This document shows, piece by piece, positions 1,792 to 11,708 of a stretch of DNA of 11,708 bases. The stretch is from positions 1 to 11,708 of the forward strand of contig JALUKJ010000154.1 in assembly GCA_027056615.1 (NCBI GenBank), written 5' to 3'. This stretch comes from Campylobacteraceae bacterium. GTDB lineage: Bacteria > Campylobacterota > Campylobacteria > Campylobacterales > Sulfurovaceae. Numbering within the stretch: the stretch's first letter is position 1; each line of letters opens with the position of its first letter. The position numbers were made by a program, and so were the translations under genes. The notes under the pieces were generated by a model. The model saw nothing but the letters and a program-made list of their open reading frames with translations. It had not been told where the DNA came from and ran no database searches.

Positions 1792-2442
1792 TTAACTGTG
1801 TTTTTTTAATATATTTAAATAGTCTAAACGTTGAGGTGTTCCAATATCATACCATTCACCTTGATACAACTCTGTTGTTAACTGATTTTTTTCAATAGCA
1901 TCAAATAGAAGAGGAGCCAAAGGCTGTCTACCATACTCTAACCCTTTAAACATCTCTTTAGAGTAGTAACCAATACCAGAAAAAGTATACTTCTGTTGTG
2001 TACCTGTCAAATAGAAGTCTCCATCTAAGTTGTGTTCAGGGTTCTTTACCAAAATAAGTTTAGCTAAGAGTCCATCTTCTAACTTATAACTACTATCAAA
2101 TGGATAATCTGTCCAAACATCTCCATTGACTACTAAAAATGTATCTGAAAGTAGAGGAAGTGCCTTTACAATCCCCCCTGCTGTCTCTAATGCTCCCTCA
2201 TTTTGCTCATCAGAAAACTCAATCTGCACACCAAAGGCTGAACCATCACCCAAGTAGTCTATTATCTGTTGACCTAAGTAAGCAACATTTATAACTATTT
2301 GAGTAAAACCAGCATCACGTAGTCGTTCAATATGCCAAACAATAAGGGGTTTTCCTCCTATCTCTAAAAGTGGTTTTGGTGTGTGGTTAGTAAGTGGTCG
2401 CATTCTAGTACCTAACCCTGCTGCAAGTATCATTGCTTTCAT
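1792..2442 (-). CDS. murU: MurNAc-1-phosphate uridylyltransferase (MurU-like)
   Basis: This is a nucleotidyltransferase predicted to turn MurNAc-1-phosphate plus UTP into UDP-MurNAc, so that recycled sugar re-enters peptidoglycan synthesis without passing through MurA/MurB. The N-terminus holds the sugar-nucleotide pyrophosphorylase signature AAGLGTRMRPLT (7-18) followed by Lys23 in PKPLL. The metal-binding Asp is D108 in VVNGDVW, and LETAGGI (85-91) is the usual substrate loop. At 216 residues it is the short, single-domain form, close to known MurU, and lacks the C-terminal hexapeptide domain of GlmU. AAAAGGGAG precedes the ATG. It follows amgK on the same strand, and this kinase plus uridylyltransferase pairing is the best evidence for MurU rather than another sugar nucleotidyltransferase. 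The 127-bp gap to amgK is occupied mostly by a repeat element. Confidence 0.88.
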   Translation of the reverse strand: MKAMILAAGLGTRMRPLTNHTPKPLLEIGGKPLIVWHIERLRDAGFTQIVINVAYLGQQIIDYLGDGSAFGVQIEFSDEQNEGALETAGGIVKALPLLSDTFLVVNGDVWTDYPFDSSYKLEDGLLAKLILVKNPEHNLDGDFYLTGTQQKYTFSGIGYYSKEMFKGLEYGRQPLAPLLFDAIEKNQLTTELYQGEWYDIGTPQRLDYLNILKKHS

Positions 2443-2481
2443 AATAAATAGCTCCCTTTTTTTAATATTAACCTGTAGGTT

Positions 2482-2571
2482 GACTCGTTTCCACCGTCTC
2501 GGTGGTAATGCATACGTTTTGTTATTATTACTGTTGTATGCATTCCCACGCAGGAGCGATGGGAACGAGTC
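2482..2571. repeat. BIME/REP-like paired-hairpin repeat element
   Basis: This 90-bp element is made of two inverted arms. The outer ends GACTCGTT (2482-2489) and AACGAGTC (2564-2571) are exact reverse complements. The inner ends AATGCATAC (2507-2515) and GTATGCATT (2536-2544) are as well, leaving a 20-base AT-rich loop (2516-2535). Each arm also folds on its own: CCACCG-TCT-CGGTGG (2491-2505) is a perfect hairpin, and TTCCCACGC-AGGA-GCG-A-TGGGAA (2543-2565) is a hairpin with one bulge. The arms are much richer in GC than the flanking DNA. This layout is that of REP pairs (BIMEs) moved by RAYT transposases, or of a small MITE; no transposase is present here. Its right end supplies the last bases of the amgK stop codon. 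The murU ribosome site lies outside the element. Confidence 0.85.
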
Positions 2572-3508
2572 AAATGTCTATTTTTAAAAATTCCCCTAAT
2601 GGCTTCAACTCAATATAATTTTGACACACCTCATCTATATATCGTAAAGTTAAAGGAATATTGTCTATATAATCACTCTTCTTATCACGAATATCAAGTC
2701 TAGCAAAAATTCCTAAAATCTTGATATGTCTCTGAAGCCCTGTAAAGTCAAACCATCGAATAAACTGCTCGTCTGAAACATTAACACCCTTTAATCTTTT
2801 GAACTCTAGTGATAAATTTTCCATCTGCTTAGGGTCAAAATAGACATATACATCTTTTAAAAGAGAGACTAAGTCATAAGTCAAAGCACCCTTTTTAGCA
2901 TCTTGATAATCAATAACTACTAATTTACGCCCTGTCTCCATCATAATATTTCGTGAGTGAAAATCTCTATGAACAAAAATATCTTGTGGCTGAGAGAGAA
3001 CTTCATCACAAATTAAAGCTAATGTACCATCTAACATATTCTGCTCATTTTTACTCAACTCTACCTTAAGATGTTGCTCTAAGTACCACTCTTGCATTAG
3101 ATTCATCTCAAACATTAAAAACTCTCTATCGTAAGGTTCTAAGTTTGTAGTATCTGCCTTTTGAATCTTTAGAATCTCTTCAATCGCTTTCATATAGAGT
3201 AACTCAACACTCATATCATTCAAGACATCTGCTAAATGCTGTGAACCCAAATCGGTTAAAAGAAGATAACCCTCCTCTAAATTTTGAGCAATAATTCGTG
3301 GTACTTCAACTTTTACTTTTAATAAACGAACTGAAATATCAATAAATGGGTAAAGCACCTCTTTGTTTGCTGTAGAGTCCATAAGAATATAGCTTTTATC
3401 TCTGTCTATAATTCTATAATATCTTCTAAAACTTGCATCTCCACCAAGCACTTCTATTTTATAATCTCTATAACCTAAATCATTTAGCCATGATTTAATT
3501 CTTTGCAT
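2570..3508 (-). CDS. amgK: N-acetylmuramate 1-kinase (AmgK-like)
   Basis: This is an aminoglycoside-phosphotransferase-fold sugar kinase predicted to phosphorylate the anomeric hydroxyl of MurNAc (and possibly GlcNAc) with ATP. The N-lobe has LGGDASFRRYYRI (21-33), the nucleotide-binding loop typical of AmgK. The catalytic loop is FVHRDFHSRNIMM (178-190) with Asp182 as base and Asn187 as metal ligand. The metal-binding Asp200 is in VVIDYQDA. The start overlaps the end of anmK by 14 bp, so the two are probably translationally coupled. The protein is 312 residues, somewhat short of what I recall for the Pseudomonas enzymes (about 330-340). Its TGA stop (2572-2570) is formed by the edge of the repeat element, so the C-terminus may have been clipped or re-written by insertion of that element. 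The catalytic core is complete, so activity is expected. Confidence 0.88.
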   Translation of the reverse strand: MQRIKSWLNDLGYRDYKIEVLGGDASFRRYYRIIDRDKSYILMDSTANKEVLYPFIDISVRLLKVKVEVPRIIAQNLEEGYLLLTDLGSQHLADVLNDMSVELLYMKAIEEILKIQKADTTNLEPYDREFLMFEMNLMQEWYLEQHLKVELSKNEQNMLDGTLALICDEVLSQPQDIFVHRDFHSRNIMMETGRKLVVIDYQDAKKGALTYDLVSLLKDVYVYFDPKQMENLSLEFKRLKGVNVSDEQFIRWFDFTGLQRHIKILGIFARLDIRDKKSDYIDNIPLTLRYIDEVCQNYIELKPLGEFLKIDI

Positions 3509-4580
3509 ATATTGCCCCTAAAATACTGTTATCTTTTGCACCTGTGACACTTTTGAGGTCAACTTTTTCTTGATGCACTCTTTTGTAAGCTAACCAAGCA
3601 AATATCATCGCTTCCATATTGTCAGCATCTATATTATACTTCTGTGTTGAAGCAACTTCAACACCAGATAAAGCCTCTTGTAATTTTTCCATTAAAAAAA
3701 TATTTCTTGCACCACCACCACAAACTAAAAGCTCTTTAACATTAAATTTTTTAATTTCGTCTGCAATGCTCTTTACAGTTAATGCCAATAGTGTTGCTTG
3801 AACATCTTTTGCACATATTTTACCCAATGGTTCCAAATATTTTCTTAAAAAATTCTTATTAAAATATTCTCTTCCTGTACTTTTAGGATAATTTAATAAA
3901 AAATAGGGGTCATTTAACATACTGTTCAATAATTTCTCATTAACACAACCAGATTTTGCCCATGCTCCATCTTTGTCATAAGCAACACCTAAATGCTCTT
4001 TTACCCAAATATCCATCAAAATATTACCACAACCTGTATCATAACCAAGAAGTTTTGGTTCAAAAAGAGAGATATTTGCCATTCCTCCAATATTTACAAC
4101 AGCTACTCTATCTAAATGAGCAAATAAAAAAGCATGAAAAGCAGGAGCTAAAGGTGCTCCTTGACCTCCTAATGCTACATCTTTAGAGCGAAAGTCTGAA
4201 ACAACATCAATTCCTGTCTCAACTGCTACTACAGAAGCGTTACCAAGTTGCATTGAAAAGGGGTGTTGACCTAAAGGTTCATGCCACAGTGTCTGCCCAT
4301 GCAATCCAATAGCTTCTACATCTAAAGGGTTAATTAAGTTCTCTGCTAAGAGTTCATTTACTGCTTTTGCAAAAAAGAGAGCCAACCTATGGTCAACCTC
4401 ACCAATCTCTTTAAGAGTTGCCCCTTTGGCTATTAATTTTAAGATTTGATTTTTAAGAGACTCTTCAAATGGTACAAAGTGTATGGCTAAAAGATGACAC
4501 TCTTTATGATTTACTTCACAAAGAGCTACATCAACCCCATCTAAACTTGTACCTGACATAATACCTATATATTTTTCCAT
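3495..4580 (-). CDS. anmK: Anhydro-N-acetylmuramic acid kinase
   Basis: AnmK cleaves the 1,6-anhydro ring of anhydroMurNAc, a product of lytic transglycosylases, and phosphorylates it to MurNAc-6-phosphate using ATP in the cytoplasm. The signatures are clear: IGIMSGTSLDGVDVAL (5-20), GLHGQTLWHEP (92-102), VNIGGMANIS (162-171), YDTGCGNILMD (180-190) and LLVCGGGARN near 290. Asp181 in the DTG motif matches the catalytic base (Asp182 in E. coli). The length of 361 residues is normal. It is the first gene of the anmK-amgK-murU block. The start is fixed by the conserved N-terminus only a few residues before the first motif; there is no clear Shine-Dalgarno sequence, and the likely -10 box is only 9 bases upstream. 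Confidence 0.95.
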   Translation of the reverse strand: MEKYIGIMSGTSLDGVDVALCEVNHKECHLLAIHFVPFEESLKNQILKLIAKGATLKEIGEVDHRLALFFAKAVNELLAENLINPLDVEAIGLHGQTLWHEPLGQHPFSMQLGNASVVAVETGIDVVSDFRSKDVALGGQGAPLAPAFHAFLFAHLDRVAVVNIGGMANISLFEPKLLGYDTGCGNILMDIWVKEHLGVAYDKDGAWAKSGCVNEKLLNSMLNDPYFLLNYPKSTGREYFNKNFLRKYLEPLGKICAKDVQATLLALTVKSIADEIKKFNVKELLVCGGGARNIFLMEKLQEALSGVEVASTQKYNIDADNMEAMIFAWLAYKRVHQEKVDLKSVTGAKDNSILGAIYAKN

Positions 4581-4736: not shown

Positions 4737-6281
4737 ATGAGCATAAGAAAAAAACTATCTTCCAAATGGCAAACCGATTACTTTAACCAAAGGCTCAATA
4801 GTATCTCTTTTAATCATATTGGTTTGAGAGCTGTAAAAAACTGTTCCATTGAGTTTAACTATCCCATAACGGCTATTGCAGGAGCAAATGGTATTGGGAA
4901 GACGACTATTTTACAACTTATTGCTTGTCTCTATCATAACCTTGACAAGAGTCATAAACCTTACCGATTTTCAAACTCTAAAAAAGCAAAATCTTACTAT
5001 ACCTTTAGTGACTTTTTTATCCATTTTAAAGGTGAAGAGAAGTCTGAAAATGCAGAGATAACCTATAGTTTCTACACAAAAGGCTCAAATAAAACCCACA
5101 CCCTAAAAAAGGGTAAAAAATGGAATGACTATCGTCTGCGTCCTATTCGTCATACCGATTTTTTTGGTGTCTCTCGTGTTATCCCTGCTAATGAGTTTAG
5201 TACTTTTAAAAATACTTTCTCCTCTGTTGGTACTTCTATTACCCAAGAGACCCTCTCCCTCAAAAGTACAGAGATGATACGAAATATTCTCAACAAACCT
5301 CTCACCTCAGTTGATGTAAATAGCTCTGAGAAGATTGTTAACTTCAAGCTCAACAGCATTAATCTTGATTCAGGTCTAAGCTATAGCAACTTCAATATGG
5401 GAGCAGGAGAAGAGGTGATTATTGCGATGATTAGTCGGATTAATGAGTTGCCAAATGCTAGTATTGTACTTATTGAAGAGTTGGAATTGGGCTTACATCC
5501 TAAAGCTCAAAAGATTTTAATGGAGAAGCTTTTTCATATTGTCTATGCTAAACGATTACAGCTTATCTTCACTACTCATTCACCTTTTCTTTTTAATGTC
5601 ATGCCACCTGAGGGGAAGATTTTACTCAAAAAATTTGATGAGCAGTTGGAGGTCATCTATAGACCAAGTAATTTTCTTGCATTTTCAGAGCTTGTAGGCG
5701 AAACCCCTCGTGAATTAACTGTTTATGTTGAAGACCACATTGCAAAACTAATACTCCAAGAGCTGTTTAACAGCTCTCTATTAAAGAGAATAAACCTTGT
5801 AGATGTAGGAAGCAAAGAGAATGTAATCAGAATGGTAGGGGCTCACTATCGTAACACCTCATTGGGCAAAGCCGTAGGAGTTGCAGATGGAGACTTGACC
5901 CCAAAAGAGCTAAAAAATTGGTACAAAAAGTATGTTTTAAAAGAGGGTGAAGCGTTTGACGATGTTTTTGAGAGCAACAGTGCAAAAATGTTTAACAAGT
6001 TTGCAGGGACAGATGCCCCAGAGGTCTATATGGTTGAAAAACTAAAGCAAAATGATGAATACATTAGAGCCATAGATGATTCTGATGAATTTAAATCATT
6101 TATAAAACATGAACTAAGCTTAGAAGACCACCATAATCTATTTTATGTAGTAGCTAAGTACCTCTGTAAAAATGAGATGGTCATAAAAGCTCAACTTATT
6201 GGATATATGATTCAAAACTATAGAGAAGATTTTGAAGGGCTAATTGAGTTTGTTGAAGCTCGATTGAAAGATGAAATTTAA
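4737..6281 (+). CDS. OLD-like ABC ATPase with C-terminal TOPRIM domain
   Basis: This cytoplasmic protein combines an SMC/ABC-type ATPase with a TOPRIM nuclease-like domain, the layout of OLD-family proteins, many of which are antiphage or DNA-processing nucleases. Walker A is AGANGIGKTT (48-57). An ABC-signature-like NMGAGEEV lies at 220-227. Walker B is SIVLIEELELGLHP (242-255) with Glu248 catalytic and Glu247 where Asp is common. The switch His is H281 in FTTHSP. The TOPRIM part starts at LTVYVEDHIA (Glu332) and has VADGD (Asp384, Asp386). The GTDAPE segment near 424-429 and the helical tail are familiar from AAA-TOPRIM proteins. At 514 residues it is short for the family. There is no UvrD helicase next door (as in Gabija) and no HNH gene (as in Septu), so it looks like a stand-alone class 1 type. 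GAGAGG sits 14 bases before the ATG. A secreted CsgG-like protein follows 18 bp later on the same strand, an unusual partner. Confidence 0.85.
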   Translation: MSIRKKLSSKWQTDYFNQRLNSISFNHIGLRAVKNCSIEFNYPITAIAGANGIGKTTILQLIACLYHNLDKSHKPYRFSNSKKAKSYYTFSDFFIHFKGEEKSENAEITYSFYTKGSNKTHTLKKGKKWNDYRLRPIRHTDFFGVSRVIPANEFSTFKNTFSSVGTSITQETLSLKSTEMIRNILNKPLTSVDVNSSEKIVNFKLNSINLDSGLSYSNFNMGAGEEVIIAMISRINELPNASIVLIEELELGLHPKAQKILMEKLFHIVYAKRLQLIFTTHSPFLFNVMPPEGKILLKKFDEQLEVIYRPSNFLAFSELVGETPRELTVYVEDHIAKLILQELFNSSLLKRINLVDVGSKENVIRMVGAHYRNTSLGKAVGVADGDLTPKELKNWYKKYVLKEGEAFDDVFESNSAKMFNKFAGTDAPEVYMVEKLKQNDEYIRAIDDSDEFKSFIKHELSLEDHHNLFYVVAKYLCKNEMVIKAQLIGYMIQNYREDFEGLIEFVEARLKDEI

Positions 6282-6299: not shown

Positions 6300-7253
6300 A
6301 TGATTATCAAAAAGAGTGTGAAAATAGCATTGAGCTTACTGCTCATTAATAGTCTAGCATTTGGGGCTTCTAACTTAGAGACAGGGGTAGCAGAGGTTGG
6401 AGAAAAAATCTCTAAAAGTATGCTTACCGAAGGCAAAAAGAAGATAGCCGTCATAGAGTTTAGTGACCTCAATGACAATGTCAATAACTTAGGGCGTTTT
6501 TTAGCCGAAGAGCTAATCAATGAGTTGATGAACCACAGAAAAGAGAAAGGTTATGAGATAGTAGAGAGACGACAGCTCAATAAAGTGTTAAAACAGCTCA
6601 AACTCTCTAGCTCTGGACTACTTGACCCAAAATCTATGAAAGAGGTTGGTAAAATATTAAATGTTGATGCAATTGTAACAGGTTCATTAACTGATTTGGG
6701 AAATGATATTAAAGTCAATGCTAGAATCATCTCTGTAGAGTCAGCTAAGATAATTTCTACTGCCTCTACCAAGATACCAAAGGTTGGAAGTGTGGCAACT
6801 TTGATGAGTCAAAATAGTCTCAAGGTCTCTAGTAGTTCTATTCGTTCCTCTTCAACAGTAACCAAACAAACAGTAAAAAAGCCTAATGGGAAGTATTTTT
6901 TTGAGAATGAGGATATTTTAATTGAGTATAAAAAAATACAGAAAAGAGGATATGATGTAATTTTATACGTTACCTTTTTCAATAAAAAAAATAAACCTTT
7001 ACAAGTTGAATATTATCCCAAAAATAGTTATCTTACAGATAATAATGGACTTAAGTGGGATATGAGAAGCAAACAAACTTTGTTTACTGATAATAAAATA
7101 ACTATAGATGAAAATAGAAAAATTATCTCTCAACTAAATTTTGGACGAATGGGTGGTTCTGATGTGTCTGGAACACTGTTTAATTTAAAAGCATACTATA
7201 CAGTTAATGGGAAAGATATAGAGGTAAAATTTTATGATATACCTATAAAGTAA
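6300..7253 (+). CDS. Secreted CsgG/FlgO-like protein with C-terminal beta domain
   Basis: The product is probably periplasmic. A Sec signal (IIKKSVKIALSLLLINSLA) ends near Ala20 or Ala23, and no lipobox cysteine is present. Residues 46-160 match the TolB-N/CsgG/FlgO-type fold: KKKIAVIEFSDL opens the first strand. It continues with LAEELINELMN, YEIVERRQLNKVLKQL, and VGKILNVDAIVTGSLTDLG, then a strand pair ending ISVESAKIISTAST. These domains occur in curli secretion, flagellar outer-membrane and lipoprotein-assembly factors. A Ser/Thr-rich linker (about 162-192) leads to a 120-residue C-terminal region rich in beta-strands and aromatic residues (YDVILYVTFFNKKNKPL), resembling an Ig-like accessory domain. 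AGGAAG lies just before the ATG and the gene is 18 bp after the OLD-like gene, so the two are likely co-transcribed. The exact role is unknown; why it is coupled to a cytoplasmic ATPase-TOPRIM is not explained by known pathways. Confidence 0.8.
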   Translation: MIIKKSVKIALSLLLINSLAFGASNLETGVAEVGEKISKSMLTEGKKKIAVIEFSDLNDNVNNLGRFLAEELINELMNHRKEKGYEIVERRQLNKVLKQLKLSSSGLLDPKSMKEVGKILNVDAIVTGSLTDLGNDIKVNARIISVESAKIISTASTKIPKVGSVATLMSQNSLKVSSSSIRSSSTVTKQTVKKPNGKYFFENEDILIEYKKIQKRGYDVILYVTFFNKKNKPLQVEYYPKNSYLTDNNGLKWDMRSKQTLFTDNKITIDENRKIISQLNFGRMGGSDVSGTLFNLKAYYTVNGKDIEVKFYDIPIK

Positions 7254-7312: not shown

Positions 7313-8116
7313 TTAATTACACTTTTCATATTTTAAGATACTAGTTATGGTATAAGCATTATCAAGAACATCCACGGCTTTGGACTTTCCTGCCACAACA
7401 TTGTTATTGGTATCAAGTGTAATTTGAACTATACCCCCTAAACCTATAACACCTTTCTTTTTACTGGTGGTATCTCTAATTTGAATACTATCTCCACTAT
7501 CAATGGGTATACGTGTTCCATGATTACTGGTTGACATATCAAATGAACCATCACATCCAAAGGTAACAACTGTCGTTAAGCCATCTTCAGGATAACTTAT
7601 CTTATATCCCTTAATGTCATGAGCATTTACTTTGTTTGTTGAAGTGCTAGGTGTGGAGGTTGAGCTAGGGGGAGTAGTCGTCTCTGTGTTGGATGATGAA
7701 CCTGTTGCTGTCCATGTTCCACTACAGCCTAAGCTATCAGACCACTTTCCACTACCACTGTTGTTTTGCATCTTTCCACTATAGGTAGCCAGTCGTTTAC
7801 CACTCTTTGCAAATCCTCCACTTATATCACCATTTTTAGATGAGTATGTTCCCCCTATTATTAGGTTGTCACCCCATCCTGTTTTTATAGTTCCTGATAC
7901 AGATGAATTCTCAATTATCATTGTTCCATTCGCTCCACGACAGTTTCCATTTGATGTTGGAGTGGCTACTATTTTATACTTTTTGATGGTTGCTTCAAGA
8001 TTATTTGTGCTATTGGGTTGTGTTGAAGGGGTACTACTACCTTTTGAACCTCCACCACCACATCCTGATAAGTTAATCGTTCCAAAGAGCAGTGCTGTCA
8101 AATATATATTTTTCAT
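7313..8116 (-). CDS. Two-domain lipoprotein of unknown function
   Basis: The N-terminus is a lipoprotein signal (KNIYLTALLFGTINLSGC) with lipobox LSGC, so Cys19 would be lipidated. Gly20 rather than Asp at +2 favours the outer membrane. A flexible Gly/Ser/Thr/Pro stretch (20-40) follows. The first domain (about 42-138) is Gly- and Ser-rich and beta-like, with Cys59 and Cys131 and the repeated pattern SGxxxxGxW around GSGKWSDSLGCSGTWTA. A second Thr/Ser/Pro linker (139-162) leads to a C-terminal beta-rich domain (163-267) with Cys188 and Cys266. The four mature cysteines, two per domain, could form one disulphide in each. AAAGGATTAAC precedes the ATG. I do not recognise a named family. Its promoter closely resembles that of the adjacent WYL regulator gene, which lies 71 bp upstream on the same strand. 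It may therefore respond to that regulator. Confidence 0.75.
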   Translation of the reverse strand: MKNIYLTALLFGTINLSGCGGGGSKGSSTPSTQPNSTNNLEATIKKYKIVATPTSNGNCRGANGTMIIENSSVSGTIKTGWGDNLIIGGTYSSKNGDISGGFAKSGKRLATYSGKMQNNSGSGKWSDSLGCSGTWTATGSSSNTETTTPPSSTSTPSTSTNKVNAHDIKGYKISYPEDGLTTVVTFGCDGSFDMSTSNHGTRIPIDSGDSIQIRDTTSKKKGVIGLGGIVQITLDTNNNVVAGKSKAVDVLDNAYTITSILKYEKCN

Positions 8117-8141
8117 GTTAATCCTTTTTATAATAAAAAAG

Positions 8142-8173
8142 ATTGTATCTATTTGTTTTGCTAAAAACTGTCC
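8142..8173 (-). promoter_or_regulatory. Lipoprotein promoter with GGACAG module
   Basis: Read on the minus strand, GGACAG (8173-8168) and TTTT lead, 26 nt from the first G, to the -10 box TACAAT (8147-8142). The -35 region is therefore covered by the GGACAG-TTTTT stretch. The same spot lies in a small palindrome AAAAC-AGGACA-GTTTT (8179-8164). The module matches the WYL gene promoter in 22 of 32 positions by hand alignment, with identical spacing. It is a good candidate for a WYL-regulator binding site. Confidence 0.5.
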
Positions 8174-8187
8174 TGTTTTAAATAGTT

Positions 8188-9207
8188 TTATACTATTTTC
8201 AAATATTTGTTTAAATCTTGTATCATCTCATCTTGCAAAGATTGAGGAGAGAGTATCTTTACATTGGGTAGCCACCTTTTAATAAAAGGCAATATCTCCA
8301 ATGTATGGGTATAGTCCAAGGTAAACTCAACACTACCATCACTGTTCTCTTTTATAAAAGTTTGAGAGAAGAGAAACTTTTTCATATTTGGTTTGAAGTA
8401 TTTTGCAACTTTGGGTGAAGCCAAAAGGTGGGCTTTTTGTTTGTCCACTCCAAAGAGTGTCATGGGGTTTTGCATGGTTTTAAAGTAGTCAATATATTTG
8501 TTAAGTTGACTCTCTTGGTAAGACTCTTTTTTAGAGTACTCCACACGCTCTATAAAGGCAATGCGTAATAGAAGAAAACCTCGTTCTTCAGAAGCCGTAG
8601 CCACATACCAATTGTTGTCCATAAAGACAAGTTTTAAGCATTGAGCATTTTTAATAAAACGCTCTTGATTATAGTGGTAGTATATATCTCTATACTCATT
8701 ATTTTTTATGGCTAATTTTAAAGAGTTGAAAATCTGTTTTTTATCTTTCTCTAGTAACTCATCAAAATATGAATTTTGAAACAAGAAAATATCTCTTTTC
8801 CCTTTGCTAATATTGGCAAGTCTCTCTTTTGTATCCTCTTCTAGCTTTGCAAAAAGATTTTTGTCGGACTCATACATAATTTGTATGAGCCAAGAGACAT
8901 CATCGCTACTACTTAAAAACTTATGAAAAATAGTAGAGGCACTATCAAGCCGAAAACAGTGGGTAGGGTTCTCTTTTATCTTGACAATATGAGGGTAAAG
9001 CTTTTGTATATCAGCAAGATAACGACATAGAGTTCTTCTATCATAATCAAAACTATCTACATAGTTTTTACTATCTTGGGCATCAATAGCTTTTCCTACA
9101 ATCATACCTCTTTTATCTAAAACTGTTCCATTTTGACAAACTATCTTCTCTTCTACAAAGAGTTCCATCAATCTGAAAATATTTTCTATTTTTTTACTTA
9201 TGCTCAT
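8188..9207 (-). CDS. WYL-domain transcriptional regulator
   Basis: This is a winged-helix DNA-binding protein with a ligand-sensing WYL domain and WCX C-terminal extension. The N-terminal HTH includes the putative recognition helix in DRRTLCRYLADIQKLY (56-71). A roughly 30-residue insertion (about 22-53) separates helix 1 from the rest. The WYL core lies at about 155-225: W200-Y201-V202 in NNWYVATASE is a WYL variant, followed by LLLRIAFIERVE with conserved arginines. The WCX ends ILPFIKRWLPNVKILSPQSLQDEM, a typical family ending. Proteins of this type (BrxR, CapW) often control antiphage operons and are thought to sense nucleic acid or nucleotide ligands. The gene is divergent from the MBL-protease pair with a 107-bp shared region. 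A TATAAT -10 and a weak GAAGAAAAG ribosome site precede the ATG. The promoter module shared with the downstream lipoprotein gene suggests autoregulation. Confidence 0.9.
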   Translation of the reverse strand: MSISKKIENIFRLMELFVEEKIVCQNGTVLDKRGMIVGKAIDAQDSKNYVDSFDYDRRTLCRYLADIQKLYPHIVKIKENPTHCFRLDSASTIFHKFLSSSDDVSWLIQIMYESDKNLFAKLEEDTKERLANISKGKRDIFLFQNSYFDELLEKDKKQIFNSLKLAIKNNEYRDIYYHYNQERFIKNAQCLKLVFMDNNWYVATASEERGFLLLRIAFIERVEYSKKESYQESQLNKYIDYFKTMQNPMTLFGVDKQKAHLLASPKVAKYFKPNMKKFLFSQTFIKENSDGSVEFTLDYTHTLEILPFIKRWLPNVKILSPQSLQDEMIQDLNKYLKIV

Positions 9208-9237
9208 AATCTTTTCTTCACTTTTTTAATCTAAAAC

Positions 9238-9269
9238 ATTATAATATATTATTTTACCAAAACCTGTCC
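9238..9269 (-). promoter_or_regulatory. WYL gene promoter with GGACAG module
   Basis: On the minus strand GGACAG (9269-9264), a G and TTTT precede the -10 box TATAAT (9243-9238), with 26 nt from the first G to the -10. Transcription would start near 9230, giving a leader of about 22 bases. The module overlies the -35 region, so a bound regulator could repress, or could replace the missing -35 consensus as an activator. For the divergent MBL gene the GGACAG site lies about 35-40 bases upstream of its -10. Confidence 0.5.
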
Positions 9270-9303
9270 AACTTTAGAACTTTTTAAAACAAAATTAATT
9301 AGA

Positions 9304-9309
9304 TATAAT
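9304..9309 (+). promoter_or_regulatory. MBL gene -10 box, predicted leaderless
   Basis: A perfect TATAAT ends only 5 bases before the MBL ATG (9315). With the usual distance, transcription would begin at or within one or two bases of the start codon. There is no Shine-Dalgarno sequence before this ATG. The upstream TTTTTAAAAC stretch is a T-rich -35 substitute. A leaderless mRNA is the simplest reading. Confidence 0.5.
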
Positions 9310-9314
9310 TCAAA

Positions 9315-10370
9315 ATGCATAAAAAAAATCTAACCCTACATGTTTTAAAAGCATTCAGTGGAGATACTCTATTTTTATCTTACATAGGAGATGATGAACA
9401 TAAGCACTATATTCTTATAGATGGTGGTATGCCAAACAGTTACAAAAAATATATTAAAACTCATATAGCTAAAATAGAACATTTAGACTATGTTTTTCTT
9501 ACACATATTGACAAAGACCATATAGGTGGTATTTTGAAACTACTAGATAGTTCTCAAAAAAACAAAGTAAAAAATATCTTCTTTAATTCAGGGAAAATGA
9601 TAAAAAAGAGTGACTCTACTTTGGTAAGTGAATCAGATGGTATTGCATTGGTAAACTTTATTAATAACTCAAACACACTAAATACAAATAAAAAAGAGCT
9701 AACAAACGAAAGTGAGCCATTTAACTTTTTTGGTTTACAAATAACCCTTTTGTCTCCCTCTTATGAAGCCCTTGAAGTCTTTAACAATGCTTTTACCTTA
9801 GGTGAGATAAAAGAGGAAGCATTGATTAGTGACTCTCTTATAAAAGAAGATGTCTCTTTAGACTTTTATCAACTTATAAAAGAGAAACCATTTAAAGAAA
9901 AACGCCTAAAAGATGACCCTGCCAATGGAGCAAGTTTGTCTATGATACTAAAGTATGAAGAGCAAACTATTTTACTTTTGGGTGATGCTAAAGACCATAT
10001 TATAGTCTCTTCACTTAAAGCTTTAGGCTACTCTACTGAAAACAGATTAAAAGTAGACTACCTAAAGTTAGCACATCATGGAAGCAAATATCATACCAGT
10101 GAAGAGTTTTTAGCGTTAGTGGAGTGTCAAAACTATATCATCAGTACCAATGGACGATATGGACACCCCAACATAGAGACTTTAGCTAGAGTTTTGTGCC
10201 ATAAACACCGTGACACATCTAAAAAGATATATTTTTATTACAATTATGCAAAAGAGGATTATAAAAATACAAAGACACATCTTTTGACAAGTGAAGAGGA
10301 GGAGAGGTACAATTGTAAATCTATATACAACCATACTTTATTTAACATATTAGGGGAAAATAGTGACTGA
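9315..10370 (+). CDS. ComEC-like metallo-beta-lactamase-fold hydrolase
   Basis: This 351-residue cytoplasmic protein has no signal peptide or membrane segment. LHVLKAFSGDTLFLSY (8-23) and ILIDGGM (33-39) are the usual opening of ComEC/Rec2-type MBL domains. The metal motif THIDKDHIGG (63-72) has Asp66 where classic hydrolases have His, as is normal for this branch. NGASLSMIL followed by ILLLGDAK (Asp224), then LAHHGSKYHTSEEF (252-265) and STNGRYGHPN (277-286) complete the site. Family members act on phosphodiester-type substrates. Stand-alone MBLs of this kind pair with trypsin-like proteases in type I Avs defence systems, and the same pairing is seen here: the next gene overlaps by 8 bp. The start is fixed by conserved residues close to the N-terminus. 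The -10 box is 5 bases away, so the message may be leaderless. It is divergent from the WYL regulator, which probably controls it. Confidence 0.88.
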   Translation: MHKKNLTLHVLKAFSGDTLFLSYIGDDEHKHYILIDGGMPNSYKKYIKTHIAKIEHLDYVFLTHIDKDHIGGILKLLDSSQKNKVKNIFFNSGKMIKKSDSTLVSESDGIALVNFINNSNTLNTNKKELTNESEPFNFFGLQITLLSPSYEALEVFNNAFTLGEIKEEALISDSLIKEDVSLDFYQLIKEKPFKEKRLKDDPANGASLSMILKYEEQTILLLGDAKDHIIVSSLKALGYSTENRLKVDYLKLAHHGSKYHTSEEFLALVECQNYIISTNGRYGHPNIETLARVLCHKHRDTSKKIYFYYNYAKEDYKNTKTHLLTSEEEERYNCKSIYNHTLFNILGENSD

Positions 10371-11478
10371 AAAAGAGATAAAAGAGAATATCAAACAACT
10401 AACCGTTCAAATAGAGACACCTTATGAGAAAGGTACAGGGGTTCTTATAAGCTATAAAAGTAGACCATACATTTTAACCGTACATCACTGTATCTACGGA
10501 AAAGGAGCTAAAGAACATCAAGTTGATGCTGATGATGTAAAGTTTATATTTTATAATAAGGCAGAACTTTATGCTGTTGATATAATCTCTTTGGGGAATT
10601 TGGTTCTTTTGGAGATAGATAAAAAAGATTTATCTATGCATAACTTTATAACACTCAATTTTTCCAATGTTGAGTATGAGAGAGACTACTTCATTAGAGG
10701 TTTCCCCTCAGGATTAGACAAAGCACACAACTTCAAAGCCAAATGTAATGATGATGCTGTAGATAAAAAAACATTTAAGATAGAGATGTCCAATATTACC
10801 AATGATACATCAGGAGATGATGCTATAAACTACATGAAAGGCGTTTCAGGAAGTGGTGTTTTTTATGCTAAAAAAGGAAAACTCTATTTGGTTGGCTTGG
10901 TTAATGCCTTAGCCAACCAATCAGGAACATTTAATGCTGTTCATTGTACCAATTTAAAAGAGTTAAAAGTTATACCTACCAAAGCTAAAACTTCTAAATA
11001 TTATCTTCTTACTTTTCCTTTTGTTGTGTTGGGTCTGTTTTTTTTATGGGATAAAAGTTCTAATAAAATAACAACGCAACATGTAGAACCTATTATAAAA
11101 ACCCAAAAACCCACTGCCTCCAAAGAGATAATTTTATCCACTAATAATCAAAATATTGATGATGAAGTTAGTAGACAATTGACTCAAAGTGGTTTTATAC
11201 TCTCTTCAAAAAAGAATTTGACCAATGGGTATAAAATAGAGATTTATAATAAAATCAGACAAAAAAGCTCTACTGTTTATGACAATACCATTATTAAAAC
11301 CGATTGCCATTTAAGTTTTACAATTTTTGATACCGTAACAAAAAATCAAATTAAATCTGACTCTATAGATGGTGTAGCTAGTGGGTTTAGTAAAGAGGAG
11401 TCACTCGAAGAGTGTTTAAGAAATGGAGCTAAAGAGTTGGGTATAAAAATAGTTCGCTCTTTAAAGCATAAGTACTGA
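10363..11478 (+). CDS. Membrane-anchored trypsin-like serine protease
   Basis: Residues 1-200 form a chymotrypsin-fold domain. GTGVLIS (24-30) is the N-terminal strand, His42 in ILTVHHC is the catalytic His, and Ser162 in GVSGSGVFY is the nucleophile. At the usual Asp position, before the LVLLEID strand, stands Asn79 (GNLVLL). There is no signal peptide, so this half should be cytoplasmic. A single hydrophobic helix (about 213-229, YYLLTFPFVVLGLFFLW) with Lys residues before it predicts an N-in, C-out topology. The C-terminal 140 residues would then be periplasmic. They carry TDCHLSFTIFDTVTKNQI and SGFSKEESLEECLRNGAKEL, reminiscent of CsgG/LPP20/FlgT-type domains (weak similarity, by eye). 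The start is a GTG 5 bases after AGGGGA, overlapping the MBL stop, so the two are translationally coupled. It is probably an effector or signal-relay protease acting with the MBL protein. Confidence 0.82.
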   Translation: MTEKEIKENIKQLTVQIETPYEKGTGVLISYKSRPYILTVHHCIYGKGAKEHQVDADDVKFIFYNKAELYAVDIISLGNLVLLEIDKKDLSMHNFITLNFSNVEYERDYFIRGFPSGLDKAHNFKAKCNDDAVDKKTFKIEMSNITNDTSGDDAINYMKGVSGSGVFYAKKGKLYLVGLVNALANQSGTFNAVHCTNLKELKVIPTKAKTSKYYLLTFPFVVLGLFFLWDKSSNKITTQHVEPIIKTQKPTASKEIILSTNNQNIDDEVSRQLTQSGFILSSKKNLTNGYKIEIYNKIRQKSSTVYDNTIIKTDCHLSFTIFDTVTKNQIKSDSIDGVASGFSKEESLEECLRNGAKELGIKIVRSLKHKY

Positions 11479-11541
11479 TATATTTTAATTTTATATTTAT
11501 AAAAAATTTAATATTTTTGCTTAAGCTTAATTTTATTAATG

Positions 11542-11547
11542 TATAAT
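11542..11547 (+). promoter_or_regulatory. Putative -10 box of second response regulator
   Basis: A perfect TATAAT lies 30 bases before the ATG at 11578, in an AT-rich 99-bp gap. TTGCTT (11517-11522) and T-runs further upstream could serve as a loose -35. The palindrome TTAAGCTTAA (11521-11530) lies between them. The gene therefore seems to have its own promoter, separate from the MBL-protease operon. Confidence 0.45.
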
Positions 11548-11577
11548 TTCTTTTACAACTATTAAACAAGGAAATAC

Positions 11578-11708
11578 ATGAAGTGGAATCTTCTAGGTAA
11601 TATCAATTTATTGATTGTTGATGATGACCCTTTTAATCGGCAACTTGTTATAAATTTGTTGGGAAAAAGAGAAAATATACATTTTATAGAGGCAGAAAAC
11701 GGTAAAGA
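11578..11708 (+). CDS. Response regulator receiver domain, 5' part
   Basis: The frame runs from ATG to the window end without a stop (43 codons plus two bases). The product begins MKWNLLGNINLLIVDDDPFN, the first strand and acidic pocket (Asp15-Asp17) of a CheY-like receiver domain. It continues with helix RQLVINLLGKRE and strand IHFIEAENG. The phosphoacceptor Asp and any output domain lie outside. AAGGAAAT is well placed before the ATG. It is unrelated in sequence detail to the OmpR-type regulator at the other end of the window. Confidence 0.88.
   Translation, partial: MKWNLLGNINLLIVDDDPFNRQLVINLLGKRENIHFIEAENGK

Follow-up and report, generated by a model that had tools for sequence, protein, structure and literature searches.

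A ComEC-like nuclease paired with a predicted membrane-anchored protease next to a WYL regulator in a Campylobacteraceae genome: a candidate envelope-triggered defence module

How could a nuclease that may be held inactive by its own loops be released when the genes around it encode no recognised sensor? This question is raised by a stretch of 11,708 nucleotides from a Campylobacteraceae bacterium (GenBank assembly GCA_027056615.1, here G000), hereafter the window, which is the entire 11.7-kb contig JALUKJ010000154.1 (C154) of a 2.4 Mb genome bin in 467 contigs. The window encodes a WYL/WCX transcription regulator of 339 amino acids (aa; 8188..9207, minus strand) and, divergent from it on the plus strand, a ComEC-like metallo-β-lactamase-fold (MBL) nuclease of 351 aa, predicted to be a gated pro-nuclease (9315..10370), and a trypsin-like protease of 371 aa, predicted to be membrane-anchored (10363..11478). 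A preliminary description of the sequence had reported this head-to-head arrangement and the 8-bp overlap of the MBL and protease genes, and both were confirmed. We favour, with a probability of roughly 0.55, the reading that an inner-membrane protease switches on a locked cytoplasmic DNase in response to an event at the envelope, a phage attack being the most likely one. The effector cassette is already known; what is unusual here is its membrane-wired sensor end, in which the hydrophobic segment is observed and the topology predicted.

According to the main text of a 2025 Science paper (PMC12799240), a cassette of an MBL protein and a protease recurs in the Hachiman, AVAST, Lamassu and DRT systems. 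Its MBL member is a pro-nuclease that carries two disordered insertions with a conserved isoleucine in each; in Hachiman the partner protease cuts HamM after both isoleucines, which unlocks an indiscriminate DNase, and dimerisation of the protease domain suffices for toxicity, while for Avs1a defence depends on the same sites, and one cleavage product was detected. The window pair shares the build of the Hachiman (HamM-HamAB) and AVAST pairs described there, i.e., a separate ComEC-like MBL gene directly upstream of a trypsin-like protease, and structural comparison of the MBL returned a ComEC-like nuclease fold. Its predicted structure has exactly two long internal stretches with a predicted local distance difference test score (pLDDT) below 50, residues 94-104 and 161-177, which together with the predicted cut sites between V104 and S105 and between I171 and S172 occupy 9594..9629 and 9795..9845 (plus strand). 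The published signature of the cassette, a pair of disordered insertions with one cut-like isoleucine or valine in each, is therefore found in the window MBL as it is in the Hachiman and AVAST pairs, and by analogy with them both loops may cover the active site. The sites are strongly kept among the 54 close relatives listed (P0047-P0100): site 1 is I or V in all 54 and is always followed by S, and site 2 is I in 53 and V in one, followed by S in 51 and C in three. The MBL set comprised the window protein and 120 listed of 146 matches, 36 of these 121 being aligned in A3; the boundary of the close group was drawn at P0100, which placed P0101 (55% identical, 75% covered) in the distant group. 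The window pair belongs to the cassette of gated pro-nuclease and activating protease (PMC12799240).

The two genes also travel together elsewhere, as the preliminary description had proposed. Compared loci held 27 MBL genes, five of which (L016, L041, L045, L049, L052) have no visible same-strand downstream gene, and in 19 of the remaining 22 that gene encodes a trypsin-like protease; an MBL gene cut by a contig end (G145:C255) was left out of the locus counts. The other three downstream genes encode a caspase (L046, Peptidase_C14 4.1e-30), a similar short product recognised by eye (L050) and a 707-aa protein (L047). Near-universal conservation in related genomes, which the same description had named as speaking against a role in defence, was not observed, the distribution being patchy. 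MBL relatives (E ≤ 1e-20) occurred in 18 of the 175 family genomes and in 10 of the 398 sampled from the order, and the protease was matched over its whole length in two of the 175, with weak partial matches in four more. A profile of the membrane-type protease matched two of 398 order, two of 397 phylum and two of 397 class genomes, samples which overlap, and both matches were each time the genome itself and G481, the latter in the N-terminal part only. Searches of viral contigs and plasmids found no relative of the protease. As a side observation, one MBL gene (L051:7705-10417), which is followed by a protease and an SMC gene, is interrupted by a stretch coding for a 450-aa protein.

As to which known system the pair resembles, PADLOC placed LmuA, the Lamassu hydrolase, first for both proteins: for the MBL (5.4e-77) ahead of RTasMBL and Avs1a, and for the protease (PDLC03855, 9.5e-26) ahead of Avs2 and Avs1b. 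Judged by sequence profile the pair is nearer Lamassu than Avs1. The earlier suggestion of a relative of Avs1 did not hold: although the MBL and protease superfamilies are those of AVAST type 1 (Avs1a/Avs1b), the NCBIfam cut-offs were missed by far (Avs1a 159.5 of 420 bits, Avs1b 18.4 of 1500), the 371-aa protease has no NTPase domain, and gene and profile searches of the window agreed with the earlier reader that no STAND NTPase is encoded there. Neither SMC nor LmuC genes were found in the window. A complete Lamassu with hydrolase-protease effectors (ABC-3C) was likewise rejected, since LmuA-type effector profiles match but no LmuB, LmuC or ABC-3C C-terminal domain was detected at the locus. 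A caspase-family partner, as in canu (caspase-nuclease; PMC12799240), occurs beside a relative (L046), the window partner being trypsin-like.

The proteases of PMC12799240 are, in its main text, fused to defence enzymes (HamA, Avs, LmuA), whereas that of the window continues into a membrane helix and a domain predicted to be periplasmic; the words membrane, transmembrane, periplasm and WYL are absent from that main text, and the tested users of trypsin-type proteases, Hachiman and AVAST, answer there to intracellular cues, namely DNA and phage terminase. System 3 of Kaur et al., as outlined in the available text, similarly combines a nuclease with a trypsin-like, partly membrane-fused protease and a proposed proteolytic deployment of the nuclease, but its nuclease is HNH/NucA rather than MBL, it occurs mostly in alphaproteobacteria and no loop gating is mentioned in that text. 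SNIPE (PMC13190303) likewise counters phage entry at the membrane, but there the nuclease itself is membrane-bound and the available text names no protease. Our search of the open-licence literature found no membrane-anchored MBL-protease pair, the nearest idea being the NucA system (PMC7159879).

The sensor end of the window protease is built as follows. Residues 1-204 form the trypsin-like domain with His42 and Ser162 (10363..10974, plus strand), residues 213-229 a predicted transmembrane helix with the N-terminus inside (10999..11049, hydropathy 1.91) and residues 254-371 a predicted extracytoplasmic domain (11122..11475), modelled in blocks with pLDDT of 74-94 except for the last residue. 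The structure model (m69bc24801be5; pLDDT 72.4, predicted template modelling score 0.52) has a DegS-like fold by structural match. DegS is a membrane-anchored trypsin-like stress protease whose protease domain is periplasmic, whereas that of the window is predicted to be cytoplasmic with the sensor outside. This topology, i.e., catalytic domain in the cytoplasm and two-cysteine domain in the periplasm, is predicted from the hydropathy, from the charge around the helix (net +4 over the 15 preceding residues and 0 over the 15 that follow) and from Cys315 and Cys351, which are both kept in 17/17 aligned proteases (alignment A1, 17 of 47 proteases). A protease with its own transmembrane helix and outer domain, as put forward in the preliminary description, agrees with the helix-like segment and the separate domain beyond it in hydropathy and structure model. 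With the window counted, a helix is present in 22 of the 47 proteases (one of them marginal), and His42 and Ser162 are invariant in all 22. Profile searches of the C-terminal part gave no Pfam family above cut-off and no fused known defence-associated enzyme, and sequence searches with the C-terminal domain alone gave nothing usable; a lead only is the Acinetobacter baumannii minor lipoprotein 5tse_B at Foldseek rank 48 (TM 0.60 by target length, aligned residues unlisted), the target size of which (134) fits this domain. Beyond the helix of P0015, P0017 and P0020-P0022 the two-cysteine domain is replaced by a Pro/Lys-rich, repetitive-looking tail. Another exchanged end is the FGE domain of the trypsin-like fusion proteases L040:3049-4215 and P0031, in L040 directly 3′ of an MBL gene.

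WYL-MBL-protease loci without a recognised nearby sensor gene recur in the genus, with varying protease architectures. In those of the window, G162, G163, G167:C122 and G170:C2, no SMC-profile match was found within six genes or up to the contig end, and four of these five have a predicted membrane helix in the protease, in three architectures, the 537-aa protease of G170 being without one. The 371-aa architecture (window and G162) has its helix at residue 213. A 760-aa architecture (L013:5487-7769) has a middle part without a Pfam family, a helix at 527 and, beyond it, a weak, sub-threshold OmpA match (0.0035), and may be a peptidoglycan-facing version; the 591-aa architecture has its helix at 546 and a weak TPR match in mid-protein. 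The nearest of the compared loci, L009 (G162:C46, equal to L015; JALVEV010000046.1), lies in a Campylobacteraceae metagenome-assembled genome and has an MBL 94% identical to that of the window, while the nearest relatives in sequence, P0047 (98%) and P0001 (91%), share a contig outside the compared loci.

The link to defence comes in part through the WYL regulator, which matched WCX above and WYL below the Pfam cut-off and the PADLOC WYL profile at 7.6e-18. BrxR is a WYL repressor, and 48% of its family lies with known defence systems according to the available text of PMC9122601. Among the 27 MBL genes, seven have a WYL gene within three genes, and a protease follows in all six of these that show the downstream gene, one of the six being the full Lamassu of L011 and the other five the loci without an SMC match named above. 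A single profile, which also matched in 7 of 14 control genomes, found four WYL genes in G000, and each of its two MBL genes adjoins one of them; with four WYL genes in about 2,400 genes, the chance that a given gene has a WYL neighbour is roughly estimated at 0.3%. The second of these loci (L016; G000:C246:1794-3122) ends with its contig after the first 100 MBL residues, and a search for its protease with that of L013 found none, which says little. The third WYL gene (L068, on G000:C83), 40% identical in product to the window regulator over its length, adjoins Csx20 (2.9e-44), with Cas6 (3.7e-47) at a distance of about 2 kb; the same contig carries three repeats of 37-38 bases spaced by 73-74, by appearance a short CRISPR array. 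One WYL lineage is thus present at both a CRISPR and an MBL-protease locus. The fourth lies next to a response-regulator-like protein, with an ankyrin-like protein nearby that weakly matched a PADLOC candidate. Identities between WYL proteins are 22-28% between lineages, 44-60% within L013/L016/L037/L039 and 94% between the window and G162; since they form separate lineages, repeated recruitment of WYL regulators is suggested.

Two further genes of the window may be envelope partners. One encodes a FlgO/CsgG-like exported protein (6300..7253, plus strand; FlgO PF17680 9.7e-15, CsgG 1e-9) and is found in 2 of 30 genus genomes, precisely those in which the membrane protease occurs. The other, lipoprotein-like gene (7313..8116, minus strand), whose product gave no Pfam match above cut-off, is common to the window and G162, where its homologue adjoins WYL and MBL with the order of the WYL and lipoprotein genes exchanged. 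A comparison by hhalign gave no support for a shared ancestry of the protease C-terminal domain with either the FlgO-like protein (E 0.45) or the lipoprotein (E 0.74). G162 also carries the tail of a second FlgO/CsgG-like copy (L058).

Taken together, we infer cleavage of the nuclease, a defence role and an envelope or phage-entry trigger. By analogy with BrxR, the WYL protein would probably keep the divergent operon low until released by a stress ligand. The MBL would be made inactive, with the two loops that are disordered in the model lying over its active site, a gating that is shown for HamM, supported for Avs1a and here analogical. With its protease domain towards the cytoplasm and its two-cysteine domain towards the periplasm, as predicted, the protease could be clustered by a signal from the envelope, for which the FlgO/CsgG-like protein or the lipoprotein may act as relay, much as forced dimerisation acts in Hachiman. 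It would then cleave after V104 and I171, and DNA degradation would abort the infection by growth arrest or death. The membrane sensor would thereby stand in for the sensors of known systems, which are STAND, SMC or helicase proteins. We propose more tentatively that the protease is an NTPase-free transmembrane immune receptor, an "inside-out DegS" that turns a phage-entry or envelope signal into the release of a gated DNase in one step, with the FlgO/CsgG-like protein and lipoprotein as a trans-envelope tripwire and with other outer parts in related versions, e.g., the OmpA-like and perhaps peptidoglycan-binding one of L013. If the sensor does face the periplasm, cells could respond before the entry of phage DNA is complete, and the cassette would be connectable to a membrane sensor. 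WYL control would be an addition to this effector family, and the predicted cut residues V104 and I171 together with the active-site serine S162 are exact points for direct testing.

Several observations weigh against the favoured reading. Its main weakness is the absent aspartate of the catalytic triad: at residue 79, the column picked as the canonical position by our own comparison with HtrA-like sequences, the 22 membrane-type proteases carry E (13), N (4), G (4) or S (1), and therefore activity would rest on the His-Ser pair or on some other acid. At 17 residues the helix is short; it contains a proline, a 19-residue scan did not pick it up, and the charge rule fails in three of the 22 (reversed in P0003, equal in P0004 and P0013). 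In the nuclease, site 1 is a valine and not an isoleucine, as it is in 13 of the 54 relatives; loop 1 is also much shorter than in other relatives, with an N91-S105 spacing of 14 against 30 in four relatives and 41 in P0166, so that the "insertion" is modest there. Most of the 66 more distant matches listed lack the [I/V]-S pattern; among them site 1 is Ile in 13 and Val in 7 and site 2 is Ile in 7. A sensor gene could be missed, because the bin is split into 467 contigs and the window ends 230 bases after the protease, and the defence-island context is not judgeable because the window is a whole contig. At the locus, no WYL operator signal stood above chance, nor did promoter-like matches in 8000-11708 (17 found, 17.5 expected). 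Since only two related genomes hold them, function and joint transfer are inseparable for the FlgO-like and lipoprotein genes.

An explanation closer to the known systems is that the window holds a Lamassu effector pair that has shed LmuB and LmuC or works with them in trans, the helix merely altering its location. LmuA leads the PADLOC profiles for both proteins, and a genome of the same order holds a full Lamassu in the order WYL-MBL-protease-LmuC-LmuB (L011; LmuC 6.4e-9, LmuB 2.3e-85), in which WYL likewise stands in front. However, the window has neither gene, and a one-profile search of G000 gave only two short weak LmuB matches, which mean little because the same search matched in 13 of 14 control genomes. 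Furthermore, the ABC-3C adaptor part is replaced by the helix and outer domain, which are kept down to about 45% identity and therefore do not look like decay; on balance we regard this explanation as unlikely.

The folds would also suit ordinary physiology, in which the DegS-like protease trims the ComEC-like nuclease as part of envelope-stress or DNA-uptake regulation, with the FlgO/CsgG-like protein and lipoprotein as envelope partners and no antiphage role. Exported-looking neighbours in both genomes fit this proposal, but the patchy distribution of the protease (2/175) and of the MBL family (18/175), the WYL association and the kinship with pairs of proven antiphage function make it doubtful. 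The same membrane-to-nuclease relay could instead serve as a suicide module against other attacks on the envelope, i.e., rival toxins, secretion-system strikes or conjugation, given that the trigger is not named by any data here and that the predicted position of the sensor domain is periplasmic. Set against this are the antiphage precedents of the family in the main text of PMC12799240 and the WYL paralogue in a CRISPR locus, and we rate it as rather improbable. The favoured membrane-protease switch against phage attack is the reading we retain.

The divergent promoter region between WYL and MBL spans 9208..9314, and its MBL-side part is near-identical in L009 (alignment A4). A candidate WYL operator, AAAMCTGTCC (exact at 8164 and 9260), was rejected: its four one-mismatch matches were equalled in 17 of 200 shuffles, and it overlaps a possible -35 box. 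At 9304-9317 a TATAAT ends 5 bases 5′ of the MBL start codon, with the same bases in L009, and no clear ribosome-binding site was seen there; the MBL mRNA may for these reasons be leaderless.

The remainder of the window holds an OLD-type AAA ATPase (4737..6281, plus strand; best PADLOC profile HEC-04, 1.1e-58), a row of nucleotidyltransferase-like, APH-type kinase and AnmK genes (1792..4580, minus strand; AnmK and APH by profile, the rest by eye), which looks like anhydro-MurNAc recycling, and, 3′ of the protease, a response-regulator-like gene recognised by eye, which starts at 11578 and is cut short by the contig end. A homologue of the AAA ATPase, truncated at a contig end (L038:6067-6594), also lies one gene from another MBL-protease pair in G164. 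The gene after the protease in G162 is, by eye, M16-type peptidase-like. An integration hotspot at this gene, which is present in 9 of 26 genomes, was considered and rejected, since only G162 and G168 show it and the neighbours differ in six others of the nine that were inspected. Closely related M16-type peptidase-like genes (78%) have MBL-protease loci of two differing subtypes on opposite sides (L009:6219-8996 and L036:3194-5965).

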